A stretch of DNA of 64,000 nt from Salinarchaeum sp. Harcht-Bsk1. GTDB lineage: Archaea; Halobacteriota; Halobacteria; Halobacteriales; Salinarchaeaceae. Position 1 is the stretch's first letter, and the number at the start of each line of letters is the position of its first letter. The stretch spans positions 1,445,014 to 1,509,013 of the forward strand of contig NC_021313.1 of assembly GCF_000403645.1 (NCBI RefSeq), in the 5' to 3' direction. A model generated the notes under the pieces. It was not told the DNA's origin. It saw only the letters and a program-made list of their open reading frames with translations, and ran no database searches. Positions 11,950-48,465 of this stretch are shown here, piece after piece. A program made the translations under genes and the position numbers.

Positions 11950-12285
11950 AGCGGATTGCGCCTTCCAGTCCCACCCGGTGATCTTCTGATAGATCTCGAA
12001 GCCTCGGTGGACCACGTCGGCGCGCGCTGCGCAGGCTGCGAGCCCTCCCACGGGCGAGCAGCCGAGCGAGCTACGCGCGAGGGATGAGCAGCGCAGCGAG
12101 GGAGCGCTAGCGACTGAGTGAGCAGCACAAGCGGTTGGGGAGGGCCGAGGTGCGGTGGGTGGGACTTCGAAAGGGGCAGTTCGCTCCGCTCGCGCGACTC
12201 GCTTCGCGGTTCACTCGCTCACTGCGTTCGCTCGTTGCAGTGCTTACTTCACCGGGCTTCCCGGAGCGACCTGGGCTTTCGGAGG
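11950..12285. repeat. Structured intergenic element, copy A
   Basis: Left end TTCCAGTCCCACCCGG (about 11964-11979), then GGTGGACCACGTCGGCGCGC, GCGCGAGGGATGAGCAGCGC and CGGTTGGGGAGG, as in copies B, D and E. The right hairpin starts at CGAAAGGGGC (12168-12177) and closes at 12263-12281 (GGAGCGACCTGGGCTTTCG). Base CGAAAG/CTTTCG and tip TCGCTCC/GGAGCGA pair. The left hairpin of other copies appears truncated here by the lipoprotein promoter. Confidence 0.75.
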
Positions 12286-15742: not shown

Positions 15743-16156
15743 CGGAAGCCCCCTCCCGCTCGACCGGCCGCGGCTCGCTGCGCGCTTCCCTCGCTACCGA
15801 TGGTCGCTCGGTCCAGAGCTTACGTCGCCGGGGCCGGGTCGACCGGTCGGCCCCTTCCGGAGCCCCACCCGGGGAGCTTCCCTAATCCTCAGAAACCCCG
15901 GTGGAGGTGCCGTGGCGCGCGTTTCGCGGCTGTGTCAACAGCCGCGTAGCGTGCGAGGGACGAGCAGCGCAGTGGTGAGCGAAGCGAACCCGAGCAGCGC
16001 AGGAGGTTGGGGAGGACTGAGGATGCGGTCGGGTGGGACTTCGAAAGGGGCCGGACTCTCGGCGGTCCCCGGGCGACGCAAGCACCGCAGCCGACCAACG
16101 GGAGGCGAGGAGCGCAGCGAGCCCCGGGATTCCGAGCGTTCGGGGGCTTTCGGAGG
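15743..16156. repeat. Structured intergenic element, copy B
   Basis: Left hairpin arms are 15743-15765 (CGGAAGCCCCCTCCCGCTCG...) and 15837-15859 (...GGTCGGCCCCTTCCG). The centre contains GCGAGGGACGAGCAGCGCAG and GGTTGGGGAGGACTGAGG. The right hairpin runs from CGAAAGGGGCCGG at 16042 to CCGAGCGTTCGGGGGCTTTC ending near 16151. It fills the gap between the MutS-like stop and the GH2-like start. Only an AT-richer promoter-like stretch (15624-15740) remains beside it. Confidence 0.78.
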
Positions 16157-20342: not shown

Positions 20343-20528
20343 GGTGGGACTGGAAGGGGCCGACCGCTCGCGTGCTCCCACGAAGCAAGCACTGCAGCGA
20401 AGGAGCGCTAGCGACTGAGCGAAAGCGCGTGGATTGAGAGAGCGAGCTCTCTCGTCATCTCGAAAGACGCGTCGCGTCTTTCGGCGACAGCGAGTGAGAG
20501 TGCGCGAGCGGGAGGGGGCTTCCGGGCG
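20343..20528. repeat. Structured intergenic element, copy C (single hairpin)
   Basis: One hairpin only. GGAAGGGGCCGACCGCTCGC starts at 20352 and pairs with CGAGCGGGAGGGGGCTTCC ending at 20523. The base GGAAG/CTTCC and the tip CCGCTCGCG/CGCGAGCGG are perfect. Inside are smaller perfect hairpins, GAGAGAGCGAGCTCTCTC (about 20435-20452) and CGAAAGACGC/GCGTCTTTCG (20461-20482). It lies between two convergent stop codons. Confidence 0.75.
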
Positions 20529-23625: not shown

Positions 23626-23936
23626 CCAAAGCCCTCGGCCGTTCGAACGCCCTCGCTCGCTGCGCTCCTCGGCCTCCGGCCTGCGGTGCTTTCGTCGCGA
23701 GGCCGCGTCGAACGGCCTCGCCCTTTGGAAGTCCGCCAGGCGGTGGTTGCTGTGGAAGCTGGGACTTCCCGGGCCTCGAAGCTCGCTGGGGCCAGGTGGG
23801 CAAAGGCCAATTCGACCAGCCACCCCGCCCTGGCGGAATGAAAGGGCGAGGCGGGCTCGCGCGCGGTCAGCCGGCCCTATCCGAGCGAAGCGAGGATATC
23901 CGGCTGAGCGCGCGCGAGAGCGCCGAGGGCTTTCGA
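23626..23936. repeat. Structured intergenic element, divergent copy G, inside the gcvP gene pair
   Basis: Left hairpin: CCAAAGCCCTCGGCCGTTCG from 23626 pairs with CGAACGGCCTCGCCCTTTGG ending 23728. Here the base is CCAAAG/CTTTGG, a third variant of the CGAAAG and GGAAG bases elsewhere. It is followed by GAAGTCCGCC, as after the left hairpins of D and F. Right hairpin: GAAAGGGCGAGGCGGGCTCG from 23840 pairs with the stretch 23900-23935 ending GAGGGCTTTCG, joined through CTATCCGAGCGAAGCGAGGATA. It occupies nearly all the 23570-23975 gap. Confidence 0.72.
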
Positions 23937-38588: not shown

Positions 38589-39629
38589 ATGTTCGAACGG
38601 CTCGCGCTCCCGACGCCCTTCCAGGTCGGGCCGGTCAACGCCTACCTCGCGGAGCAGACCGTCGTCGATCCCGGTCCCGACGGCGAGGACGTCCGCAACG
38701 CGCTCGGCGACGAGCTCGCCGAGCGCGACCTCGCGATGACAGATGTCGAGCAGGTGCTCGTCACGCACGCCCACCCGGACCACTTCGGGCTCGCCCACCA
38801 CCTCAGCGAGCAGGGCGCGGACGTGCTCGCGAGTCCCGAGGCGGCGGCGATCATGCGCGACTTCGAGGGGCGACTCGACTACGAGCAGGCGTACTTCACC
38901 GAGCTGTTCCAGGCCCACGGGATGGCGCCGGAGACCACCCAGACCGTGACGCAACTGCCCGAGGCCTTCGTGGAGTACGCGCCCGACGTCGAGGTCGATC
39001 GGGAGCTGACCGCCGGCGACACGGTCCCGATCGACGGCACGCAGTTCGCGGTGCGGGAGCTGGCCGGTCACTCCGAGGGCGAACTCGCCTTCGAGTGGGA
39101 CGACGAGCCGGGAGCCCCAGGTGAAAGCGACGACGAGGGGACGGACGGCGGACAGCCCCGTTTCACCGCGATCGTCGGCGACAACGTGCTTCCCGACACG
39201 ACGCCCAATCCATTCCTCCAGCCACCGGCGCGTGAGGACGGATCTATCGAGGCCCCCGAGTACGAGGACCTCCTGGAGCTCGACGACCTGCGACCCCGTC
39301 CGCTCCCGGAGTTCAACGACTCGCTGGACGAACTCCAGGCCGCCGGCCACGACCGGTTCCTCCCCGGCCACGGCGGGATCATCGAGGACCCCCAGGGCCG
39401 CATCGACGAGATTAGGGCCGCCCACGAACGGCGGAGCGAGGCCGTGCTGGAGATCGTCGAGGGCCCGACCACGGCCGTCGAGGTCATGCGCGGCCTGTTC
39501 CCGGACCTGGCAGTGATCGACTACTTCCCGGGCATGAGCGAGGCGCTCGGGCATCTGGACGTGCTGGTCGAGCGTGGGGAGATCGTTCGTGAAGTGCGGG
39601 ACGGCGGGCTGGTCTACGTGCGGGACTGA
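38589..39629 (+). CDS. Metallo-beta-lactamase-fold hydrolase
   Basis: A 346-residue hydrolase with the metal motif THAHPDHFG near 58-65, later metal ligands in ELAGHSEGE, VGDNVLP and FLPGHGG, and a C-terminal helical domain (AAHERRSEAVLEIVEGPTTA) as in lactamase-like LACTB2/glyoxalase II relatives. An acidic insert (about 177-192) breaks the fold. The C-terminal part resembles a winged helix (LDVLVERGEIVREV). The substrate is unknown. Confidence 0.85.
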   Translation: MFERLALPTPFQVGPVNAYLAEQTVVDPGPDGEDVRNALGDELAERDLAMTDVEQVLVTHAHPDHFGLAHHLSEQGADVLASPEAAAIMRDFEGRLDYEQAYFTELFQAHGMAPETTQTVTQLPEAFVEYAPDVEVDRELTAGDTVPIDGTQFAVRELAGHSEGELAFEWDDEPGAPGESDDEGTDGGQPRFTAIVGDNVLPDTTPNPFLQPPAREDGSIEAPEYEDLLELDDLRPRPLPEFNDSLDELQAAGHDRFLPGHGGIIEDPQGRIDEIRAAHERRSEAVLEIVEGPTTAVEVMRGLFPDLAVIDYFPGMSEALGHLDVLVERGEIVREVRDGGLVYVRD

Positions 39630-39658
39630 ATGCGGAAGGTTGGGGAGAATCTTTCTCG

Positions 39659-40201
39659 TCCGAAAGCCCCCGATCGCTCCAGTCGCGCGGCTCGTTGCGC
39701 GCTTCGCTCCTTATAGTCGCTTTAGTGCTTACTTCGCCGTGCTTCCCGGAGCGATCGGCCCCTTTCGAAGTCCCGGAAGATCGGAGATCTTCCGACCCTC
39801 GCGAAATCGAAGATTTCGCTCAGCCCACCCAGACCGCCCACGTCCTCCCCAACCGATTGCGCCGAGAGACGTTCCTGCTCGCTACGCTCGCGGGCTGCGA
39901 CTCTCGAGCCCTCCCTCGCTGGGCTCGGCAGGACGCTGCTCGGCTTCGCTTCGCTCGCTGCGCTACTCATCCCTCGCACGGTGTCGCGCGATCGGCTGCT
40001 CACCCGCTTCGGGGTTCGCAGCCGAGCGCAGCGCGCGCCGAGGTGGACCATCGGGGTTTCGTGATCGGTGGGGAATCAACAGGGTGGGACTGGAAGGGGC
40101 CGACCGCTCGACGGCATCTGAGGAAGTAAGCACCGCAGGCGAACGGAGTGAGCCGAGGAGCGCAGCGAGTCAGGGTCGTCGAGCGGTCGGGGGCTTCCGA
40201 G
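39659..40201. repeat. Structured intergenic element, copy D (two complete hairpins)
   Basis: The best-formed copy. Left hairpin: CGAAAGCCCCCGATCGCTCC (39661-39680) against GGAGCGATCGGCCCCTTTCG (39748-39767), perfect but for a CCC/CCC internal loop. Right hairpin: 22-nt arms 40092-40113 and 40177-40198, a 5-bp base GGAAG/CTTCC, a GGG/GGG loop and a 14-bp upper stem with no mismatch. Between them are the shared centre motifs CCTCCCCAACCG and CTACTCATCCCTCGC. It lies between convergent stops and fills 39630-40255. Confidence 0.82.
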
Positions 40202-40255
40202 CGGGATGCTGTCCCGACTGTTCTCCCGCAAAAACGAAATCCGCAGACGCGCGAA

Positions 40256-41392
40256 TCAGACCTCGAATTCGATCGCGGCGCCCTGGCCGAAGCCGACGCA
40301 GAGTGTGGCGAGCCCGCGCCCACCTCCCCGCTTCTGGAGTTCGTGGATGAGCGTCACGGGCAACCTGGCACCCGAGGCGCCGAGCGGATGCCCGATCGCG
40401 ATGGCGCCGCCGTTGACGTTGAAGATCTCGGGGTCGACGCCGAGCTGTTCGCGGGCGTAGAGCGTCTGGCTGGCGAAGGCCTCGTTCAGCTCCACCAGAT
40501 CGTAGTCCTCGATGGAGCGGCCGTTGCGCTCGAGGAGGCCCTCCGTCGCGGGGACCGGACCGATGCCCATGACGCGGGGGTCGACGCCGGCGACGTTGTT
40601 CGTGCCGACCTCGGCCATGATCTCGAGGTCGTGCTCCTCGGCGAAGGCCTCGCTCGTGACGAGCAGCGCCGACGCGCCGTCGCTGACCTGGGAGGCGTTG
40701 CCGGGCGTGACCGTGCCGTCGCTCTTGAACACGGTCGGGAGTCCGGCCATGGTCTCGAGGTCGGTGTCGGGGCGGATCCCTTCGTCCTCGTCGACGGTGC
40801 CGTCCTCGGTCTCGATCGGGACGATCTCGTCGTCGAAGCGGCCCTCCTCCGTCGCAGCGGCGGCGCGCTGGTGGCTCTGGAGGGCGTACTCGTCCTGGGC
40901 CTCCCGCGAGACCTCGTAGCGCTCGGCGACCTCCTCGGCAGTCATCCCCATCTGGAGTTCGCCGATGTTGTAGAGTTCGGCGAGGCGCGGGTGGACGTTG
41001 TGGGTGTTCTCGCCCATCGGCACGCGGCTCATCGACTCGACGCCGCCGGCGATGATCGCGTCGCGGTTGCCCGCAGCGATCGCGTCCGCCGCGGAGATCA
41101 CGGCCTGCATCGAGGAGGCACACCAGCGGTTGATCGTCGTCGCGGGGACGGACTCGCCGAGTTCGGAGAGCAGCGCGATGACGCGAGCGAGGTTGTTGCC
41201 CTGCTCGCCGCGTTGCTGGGCGCAGCCCCACATCAGGTCGTCGATCAGGTCGGGATCGAGGCCGGTCTCGGCGAGGATCTCGTCGATCAGCGGGACCGAG
41301 AGGTCCTCCGATCGGACGTCGGCGTAGACGCCGTCCTCCTTCCCCTGGGCCGTTCGGTACGCGCGAGCGATAACGGGCGTCTGTGCTGCCAT
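40256..41392 (-). CDS. Acetyl-CoA C-acyltransferase (thiolase)
   Basis: A 378-residue thiolase, cleaving 3-oxoacyl-CoA or condensing two acyl-CoAs. The nucleophile Cys is in TINRWCASSM near 88, the His in GGAIAIGHPLGASGAR and the second Cys in LATLCVGFGQG, so the active site is complete. ATG 41392 is chosen over the extended frame because MAAQTPVIARAYRTAQGK is the usual N-terminus. It may complete the hydroxy-acid degradation suggested by the genes at 26-37 kb. Confidence 0.92.
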   Translation of the reverse strand: MAAQTPVIARAYRTAQGKEDGVYADVRSEDLSVPLIDEILAETGLDPDLIDDLMWGCAQQRGEQGNNLARVIALLSELGESVPATTINRWCASSMQAVISAADAIAAGNRDAIIAGGVESMSRVPMGENTHNVHPRLAELYNIGELQMGMTAEEVAERYEVSREAQDEYALQSHQRAAAATEEGRFDDEIVPIETEDGTVDEDEGIRPDTDLETMAGLPTVFKSDGTVTPGNASQVSDGASALLVTSEAFAEEHDLEIMAEVGTNNVAGVDPRVMGIGPVPATEGLLERNGRSIEDYDLVELNEAFASQTLYAREQLGVDPEIFNVNGGAIAIGHPLGASGARLPVTLIHELQKRGGGRGLATLCVGFGQGAAIEFEV

Positions 41393-41541
41393 AGGGGAAA
41401 ACAGGGGATACGTCGTGTTAAACCCTGACAAACTACCCACTCGTCGCGTGGAGTTGCAGCGACCGCCGGCACGCGGTCGGCGGCCCGATTCCTCGGTCGC
41501 AGCCGCGGTAGCACGCGGTCCAGCGGCCGGTCAGGCGGGTC

Positions 41542-41597
41542 GGGCCAGATCAGGCCAGATCAGATCAGGCCAGGCCAGATCAGACCAGGTCAGGCCA
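41542..41597. repeat. 10-bp tandem repeat over a gene 3' end
   Basis: GGCCAGATCA and shortened forms (GATCA, GGCCA) are repeated about five times, ending in GGTCAGGCCAACTCGAG, which includes the stop codon and last codons of the minus-strand membrane protein. On the coding strand the unit is TGGCCTGATC, and GGCCTGA at the gene end contains the TGA stop. GATC sites are frequent here. Confidence 0.75.
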
Positions 41598-41811
41598 ACT
41601 CGAGGAACAACAGGAGGACCTGCGGGATCGCCACGAGCAGGAGCCCAAGCACGATCAGGCCGATCGGCACCAGGATCGTGACGTCGACGAACAGCCAGAT
41701 GCCGATGCCCGCGAGGATGCACAGGATCCCGACGATCCTTAACAACCACGCGATCGCCTCTTCGAACCCCGAGTCGACGACCAGCTCCGCGACGTCGAGG
41801 ATCTCGTCCAT
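41590..41811 (-). CDS. Small membrane protein
   Basis: A 73-residue protein starting MDEILDVAELVVDSG, with two strongly hydrophobic helices (about 22-41 and 44-68, ILCILAGIGIWLFVDVTILV). The frame continues upstream, but ATG 41811 fits a short acidic N-terminus before the helices. It is divergent from the gene at 41945. Unknown function. Confidence 0.7.
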   Translation of the reverse strand: MDEILDVAELVVDSGFEEAIAWLLRIVGILCILAGIGIWLFVDVTILVPIGLIVLGLLLVAIPQVLLLFLELA

Positions 41812-43972: not shown

Positions 43973-44424
43973 GGAAGCCCCCTCCCGCTCGGGCGTTTAC
44001 ACTCGCTGTGCTTCTCATCTCGCTCACTTCGTTCGCTCGATTGCGGTGCCTGAGGCGAAGCCTCAGACTTGCTGGATCTCCGATCCAGCATCGCTTGCTT
44101 CGTCTAAACGCCCGACCGGTCGGCCCCTTCCAGTCCCACCCGGTTCGTCTTTCCCGGAGTCGCGAAAACCCGGTGGCCACGTCGGCGCGCGCTGGCGGCG
44201 GTCCGAGCCGCTTGCCGGCGAGTGGCCGCCGCCAGCCTGCGCGCGAGGGATGAGTAGCGCAGCGTAGCGAGCAACGCAATCGGTTGGGGAGGACGTGGGC
44301 GGTCTGGGTGGACTTCGAAAGGGGCCGATGGCTCGACGTACGTCACGACGCAAGCACTGGACCGAGCGAAGCGAGGGAAGCGCGCAGCGAGTGAGGTGCG
44401 TCGAGCGATCGGGGGCTTTCGGAG
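43973..44424. repeat. Structured intergenic element, copy E (two hairpins)
   Basis: Left hairpin arms 43973-43999 and 44105-44131: base GGAAG/CTTCC and a long upper stem ending GGGCGTTTA/TAAACGCCC. Centre: CAGTCCCACCCGG, CGGTGGCCACGTCGGCGCGC, GCGCGAGGGATGAGTAGCGC and CGGTTGGGGAGGACG. Right hairpin arms 44316-44338 and 44399-44421: base CGAAAG/CTTTCG, upper stem CCGATGGCTCGACG against CGTCGAGCGATCGG, one mismatch. It fills the gap between the AAA ATPase start and the ridA stop. Confidence 0.82.
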
Positions 44425-47926: not shown

Positions 47927-48465
47927 TCCGAAAGCCCCCGATCGCTCGAGGGCTGCGGTTCGCTGCGCGCTTCACTCACTTCGTTCGCTGCAGTGCTTGT
48001 TCCGATAGACTCGCTACGCTCGTCTATCGACGTTCGCCTCACTGCGTTCGGCTCACCGTCGCCTCGCACCGTCGAGCGATCGGGGGCTTTCGAAGTCCGC
48101 CCAGACGCCTCATTCCTCCCCAGCCGTCTGCGCTGCTCGGGTTCGCTTCGCTCACCGCTCCGCTGCTCGGCCCTCGCACGCTAGCTGACGACGGCCGCTC
48201 GCCCGCTACGGGGCTCGCGGCCACGTCAGCGTGCGCCGACGTGGTCCACCGGAGATTCGCGATCGGGAGAATCCGATCGGGTGGGACTGGAAGGGGCCGA
48301 GCGCTCGTACGCTTAGACGAAGCCAGCACCGCAATCGAGCGAACGAAGTGAGCGAGATGAGGAGCGTCGTTCGAAAGGCGCGAAGCGCCTTTCGTGATCA
48401 CGAGAGGGCTTCGCTCTCTCGGACGACAGCGAGTGTAAGCGCACGAGCGGGAGGGGGCTTCCGAG
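47927..48465. repeat. Structured intergenic element, copy F (two hairpins)
   Basis: Left hairpin arms 47929-47949 and 48072-48092 are perfect 21-bp complements, with the CCC/GGG positions paired here rather than looped. Centre: GAAGTCCGCCCAGACGCC, CCTCCCCAGCCG and GACGTGGTCCACCGGAG. Right hairpin arms 48289-48315 and 48436-48462: base GGAAG/CTTCC and a tip CTCGTACGCTTA against TAAGCGCACGAG. It stands in a divergent promoter gap between the KH gene and the pterin dehydratase and fills most of 47822-48559. Confidence 0.82.

Follow-up and report, generated by a model that had tools for sequence, protein, structure and literature searches.

REP, BIME and REPIN sequences, which are associated with RAYT transposases, are dispersed intergenic imperfect palindromes of 20-40 bp (PMC3733652, PMC2817692, PMC3116915). 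The genome of Salinarchaeum sp. Harcht-Bsk1 resembles these systems in carrying about a hundred dispersed intergenic imperfect palindromes that often lie head-to-head. However, its hairpins are about 98-170 nt in length rather than 20-40 bp tagged with GTAG or CGTC, they possess conserved internal loops within a unit of 235 nt or longer, their stems have been rewritten with compensation, and the host genome carries no Y1 transposase. The omega RNA (reRNA) of TnpB in IS200/IS605 elements is also produced in haloarchaea (PMC12558985). The element described here is likewise a structured element of similar size in haloarchaeal genomes, with a predicted RNA status, but it reaches about 90 copies in the host genome (G000), where no TnpB or Y1 gene was found. 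Double-hairpin elements of fungal mitochondrial DNA are nested double hairpins with stems that change yet stay complementary. Nested inserts in the present element resemble them in that stems vary while complementarity stays, although the likeness is by description only, the organisms are different and the inserts here reside in a larger element. Finally, covarying helices and invariant internal loops are shared with candidate structured RNA classes of Rfam, but no family matches above threshold and the copy number is far beyond that of usual RNA classes.

The hairpin under study lies in a 64,000-nucleotide stretch of this genome (NC_021313.1, positions 1,445,014 to 1,509,013; hereafter the window). 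Our best reading of the sequence comparisons is an undescribed, multicopy, structured and probably transcribed element. The literature covered, which was partial and leaves novelty provisional, contained no description of the element and no relevant match to its motif strings. At the gathering threshold Rfam returned two tRNAs only for the window, while a search at E up to 5 returned nothing for positions 39600-40300, and the full unit gave only two weak eukaryotic matches below threshold when loose thresholds were used.

A dispersed intergenic hairpin in Salinarchaeum

An inverted-repeat finder placed the arms GGAAGGGGCCGACCGCTCGACG and CGTCGAGCGGTCGGGGGCTTCC within 40092-40198, with 63 nt between them and 86% complementarity, and the window holds eleven copies in total, several of them degenerate (Table 1). 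A sequence search of the whole genome (3,255,260 bases in one contig) yielded at least 41 matches with 40 of 139 candidates scored, and the exact motif AAGGGGCCGNNCG matched the host genome 87 times versus 6 times for the reversed pattern, indicating that the repeat is not a product of chance. Both orientations of the motif are nearly equal in number (46 forward and 41 reverse). From the window and 60 stretches (59 around motif matches and one duplicate of a window stretch), 88 candidates were cut and 86 kept. The host genome possesses at least 86 copies, about ninety overall, and the hairpin is equally abundant in the congener G001 (3,169,527 bases).

Table 1. Copies of the element in the window and parts of the studied copy
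Feature	Position	Strand	Basis or remark
Studied copy, type 1: 5' tail GGGTGGGACTGG, hairpin and 3' CTTCC	40082..40204	+	arm pairing, row of alignment A1
Hairpin of studied copy	40094-40196	+	40092-40198 in the first-pass annotation
GGGTGGG, G runs upstream of studied hairpin	40082..40088	+	sequence
GGG in 5' arm, unpaired, opposite 3'-arm GGG	40097..40099	+	
GGG in 3' arm	40191..40193	+	3'-arm GGG in 80/80 core-motif copies
Type 2 copy, head-to-head partner of the 40094-40196 copy	39664..39764	-	
Structured spacer separating hairpins 39664-39764 and 40094-40196	39765..40081	.	by-eye comparison
Degenerate copy	12171..12279	+	
Head-to-head pair (15746-15856 -, 16045-16149 +)	15746..16149	.	
Solo copy with nested double-hairpin insert	20354..20521	+	
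Degenerate copy with CCAAAG/CTTTGG (copy G of the first-pass annotation)	~23626..23728	-	bounds approximate
Head-to-head pair (43975-44129 -, 44319-44418 +)	43975..44418	.	nested double-hairpin insert in 43975-44129
Copy with GGG mismatch turned CCC/GGG, perfect palindrome	47932..48089	-	
Copy with nested double-hairpin insert	48291..48460	+	

Based on 72 copies without large inserts, the first half of the consensus reads GGGTGGGACTGG-AAG-GGG-CCGACCGCTCG-variable stem-GACGAAGYAAGCACYGCAG-variable apical hairpin, and the second half, after the apical hairpin, reads GAGGAGCGCAGCGAG-variable stem-CGAGCGGGA-GGGGG-CTTCC. The conserved element ends are AAGGGG and GGGGGCTT, and two flank types exist (ACTGG..CCAA in 62 copies and ACTTCGA..TCGG in 24). 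The three matched forms of lower stem described in the first-pass annotation all exist, with GGAAG/CTTCC and CGAAAG/CTTTCG being accompanied by CCAAAG/CTTTGG at ~23626-23728. The upper stems it quoted are present as well, but the claim that all of them stay paired fails for GTACGCTTA/TAAGCGCAC, which contains an A-C mismatch.

Copies are intergenic, and their distances, derived with a rough home-made gene caller, peak at about 50-60 bp from the stop and about 100-120 bp from the start. In 26 clusters the copies form head-to-head pairs, separated by about 140-345 bp. The gene context of 60 clusters is tandem for 25, convergent for 19, divergent for 10 and unclear for 6, and given this lack of fixed orientation a gene-linked terminator or leader was rejected. 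Inspection of positions in 132 loci revealed no obvious autonomous copy in which inverted hairpins enclose a gene. Elements are concentrated at 1.36-2.42 Mb of the host genome, around Orc1/Cdc6 genes at 1.66 and 2.12 Mb.

Several further features were observed around the copies. Nested double-hairpin inserts, found in the three window copies marked in Table 1 and at loci L016, L017, L029, L047, L048 and L299, occupy fixed places within the element. Their stems have been rewritten but remain complementary, and their loops are found in either orientation; in another genus an insert of this kind takes up the same position in the element. Degenerate tandem repeats of 27-28 bp, CCACCGGGGTTTCGCGA-N10, run into type 1 copies at L044, L009, L047, L054 and L057, and a run of 10-bp tandem repeats (GATCAGGCCA) sits beside a gene at window 41538-41603. 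In addition, GTGGGACTGAAAG may resemble the ends of haloarchaeal CRISPR repeats.

In a second genus the hairpin forms the 3' domain of a longer element

In the genus of G006, which is probably Halorubrum because a Halorubrum plasmid matches, paralogous matches end sharply at query positions 587-821 and define a unit of 235 nt. Alignment of 19 copies (A2) arranged this unit as hairpin I, hairpin II, an invariant linker GAGGCTGGGGAGG..TGAGG and then the studied hairpin, which is thus the 3' domain of the 235-nt element there. Compared by eye and read on the minus strand, the spacer at 39765..40081 corresponds to what in other genera is the 5' part of the full-length element. A TATA-like box occurs just upstream of the 5' end in 25 of 49 copies, the corresponding count for a control stretch being 0 of 49; many of the 49 copies are orthologues of two sites, at one of which the box may belong to a divergent gene. 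No such box was seen upstream of the Salinarchaeum copies. Downstream of the element at L068, in the genus of G006, a unit of about 70 bp is repeated six times in tandem, with the element's own 3' motif, GGCTGGGGCTTCGGAGG, closing every unit; units related to these carry TATA-like boxes in other species.

A covariance model found matches in 31 of 59 Halobacteriales genomes in a patchy distribution, with per-genome counts of about 58 representing lower bounds (at least 58). Hosts among the matches listed include Haloarcula, Halorussus, Haladaptatus, Halosimplex, Haloglomus, Halomarina, Halorarius and Halobellus. The element was also found in 18 haloarchaeal plasmids, while no phage record matched it, and spread by phage was rejected. 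Copy numbers of 0, 42 and 29 were found within a single genus (g18), and jumps of this kind between congeners are more readily reconciled with a selfish element than with a host function.

Compensatory changes maintain the fold

RNAalifold on a MAFFT alignment predicted 29 pairs, 19 of which showed two-sided change; pair 54-89, for example, appeared as CG in 40 copies, UA in 29, GC in 2 and AU in 1, and was never broken. With a structure set by hand from the same sequences after viewing an alignment that MAFFT had built on sequence alone, 95.5% of paired cells were complementary, versus 78.0% in shuffles and 37-42% with the arms slid, and the covariation score reached 0.471 versus 0.138 in shuffles (none of 500 shuffles attained it). 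Because relatedness can mimic covariation, a tree-based test was made on 227 copies drawn from G000, G001 and other genera. This test was home-made and R-scape-like rather than R-scape itself, using a sequence-only MAFFT alignment, a FastTree tree and a null in which the substitutions of each column were replayed on random branches in 40 null alignments, so that its E-values are coarse with a floor of about 0.01. Ten of 6,441 column pairs were significant (E<0.05), and all ten are nested standard pairs of the hairpin, showing helices that covary beyond phylogeny as in structured RNA classes.

Compensation could also be followed at a fixed location. When a single orthologous site was compared across 12 species of the second genus, 16 of 35 pairs were compensated on both sides, and 402 of 414 cells (97%) were paired in a structure predicted from the same sequences. 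Such compensation among orthologues indicates that the pairing cannot be attributed to recent copying. The first-pass annotation had read paired change in both stems as selection on the fold itself, to be abandoned for recent copying if a larger alignment lacked significant covariation. The 227-copy alignment did contain significant pairs, and, combined with the compensation at the fixed site, they bear this reading out: the fold is, with high confidence, under selection.

One strand is favored

At fixed stem positions read on the G-rich strand, GT plus TG outnumbered AC plus CA by 87 to 32 in G000 and by 73 to 22 in G001, with the p-values for these wobble counts overstating the skew because of the shared ancestry of copies. 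The same count in other genera was unskewed (79 versus 90), and is uninformative, probably because arms in those genera do not stay in register. Predicted free energy was lower for the G-rich strand in 72 of 73, 60 of 61 and 88 of 97 copies (220 of 231 in total). Both flank types, sitting on opposite strands of a pair, are biased in their own orientation. A symmetric cruciform of the duplex is ruled out by the strand asymmetry in both Salinarchaeum genomes, and selection quite probably acts on a single strand, the one reading GGGTGGGACTGGAAGGGGCC, as either RNA or single-stranded DNA.

A single DNA strand can likewise prefer G-T over A-C, and the strand-specific pairing would equally be expected of a DNA site that acts as a single-stranded hairpin, exposed during replication or recombination and recognised by a protein, like attC or the ends of IS200/IS605, with no need for an RNA. 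The mean distance of the clusters from the two Orc1/Cdc6 genes, 385 kb, is also shorter than the 617 kb expected by chance (p ~1e-4), as it might be for such a site. However, Y1 and TnpB genes were not found in G000, orientations are about equal as counted above, and in another genus the 5' end is accompanied by TATA-like boxes. Such a DNA site is therefore considered unlikely, and from the sequence patterns RNA appears likelier than single-stranded DNA as the selected molecule.

Copies are mainly shared in place between species

Both flanks of 22 clusters are syntenic in the congener, and a recognised element was found at 16 of these 22 sites; 5 others appear empty, and L048 holds a diverged element missed by the finder. 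The syntenic site of window pair 15746..16149 also holds an element, while that of copy 48291..48460 lacks it. In 21 syntenic element pairs, arm identity was 0.54/0.53 versus 0.50/0.52 for random copies, although each hairpin was paired, and the intergenic flanks of these pairs are near saturation too (0.60 versus 0.53). Arms that at syntenic sites are hardly more alike than those of random copies yet remain paired, together with the compensation in 12 species, indicate that pairing outlives recent copying. Conversion between copies may account for some large stem differences, since identical stem variants turn up at several loci, and unrelated-looking stems at orthologous sites can be explained by conversion from other copies. 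Sites are gained or lost, given that in the genus of G006 the nearest relative at one site (L290) lacks the element with flanks 96-97% identical.

The many copies, their patchy distribution, the head-to-head pairs and the empty congener sites would suit selfish miniature elements, REP/REPIN- or MITE-like, whose paired arms merely reflect recent copying. This explanation, already weakened by the compensation among orthologues at one site, also has to account for most syntenic sites being shared with the congener and for the absence of a Y1 (HUH) transposase (PF01797) from five copy-rich genomes (G000, G001, G006, G010 and G020). In addition, no target duplication was established, the intergenic DNA at the congener's empty sites being too diverged to fix insertion edges. 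It is judged improbable. Fold-dependent copying, the other mechanism put forward in the first-pass annotation, gained no positive support: neither Y1, TnpB (PF07282, 0 matches) nor reverse transcriptase (PF00078, 0 matches) was found in G000, and most syntenic sites are common to the two species. RAYT, TnpB and reverse-transcriptase partners were not found in the host genome, which also sets the element apart from retroelements such as group II introns and retrons. A genome of the same family, G002, shows about 51 TnpB matches and no element, while element-rich G000 shows no TnpB.

A conserved GGG/GGG mismatch and upstream G runs

The internal core motif, anchored on the outside by AAG and CTT but free of any requirement for G runs, was also used to locate copies. 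In 78 of the 80 copies found in this way GGG faces GGG on both sides while neighbouring bases vary, so the facing G runs noticed in most copies at the outset hold for the larger set. Copy 47932-48089 has changed GGGGCC to CCCCCG, so that its 5' run is now CCC and pairs, and has lost the mismatch, a mark of arm-templated correction that makes its persistence elsewhere more telling. At L127, too, CCC/GGG has replaced the GGG mismatch and the palindrome is perfect or nearly so, and at L297 the apical part of the hairpin is inverted relative to orthologues.

The correction at 47932-48089 and the inverted apex at L297 are what would be seen if template switching within the palindrome corrected one arm from the other, making the pairing a product of mutation with an unselected fold. 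However, such a process should erase the GGG/GGG mismatch that 78 of 80 copies retain, and should yield Watson-Crick pairs, whereas G-T is retained and A-C is not. We thus regard it as very improbable.

A GGGHGGG motif lies at most 22 nt upstream in 75/86, 52/72 and 101/116 copies, compared with 2, 7 and 3 in a control stretch. Together with the two arm runs it provides four runs of at least three G, and these four conserved runs are compatible with the idea of a G-quadruplex, which makes a quadruplex formed from them possible. A fuller version, an undescribed class of large structured RNA in Halobacteriales in which about a hundred transcribed copies per genome, with a selected fold, would use the GGGNGGG tail and the GGG/GGG loop to build a G-quadruplex enclosing a hairpin in a cytoplasm of molar K+, seems rather doubtful.

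Discussion

We assign a probability of roughly 0.6 to the reading that an old structured element of Halobacteriales, intergenic and present in high copy, has the hairpin as its 3' domain and that the selected molecule is most likely RNA. An RNA from the strand reading GGGTGGGACTGGAAGGGGCC would be the most likely selected molecule, single-stranded DNA being less so. It would fold into three hairpins, and a protein might recognise it through the invariant internal loops and the G runs. The copies may originally have spread by a process like that of mobile elements; today they would mainly be inherited in place, with each fold maintained by selection, and stem variants would probably be exchanged between copies as well.

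Should this reading be correct, an entire archaeal order would carry, in many copies, a structured element that matches no Rfam family and has no recognised mobiliser in the host genome, and whose fold is selected at many sites. The element would then serve as a test case for separating host RNAs from domesticated mobile elements, and for the folding of G-quadruplexes when the cytoplasm is of the salt-in type.
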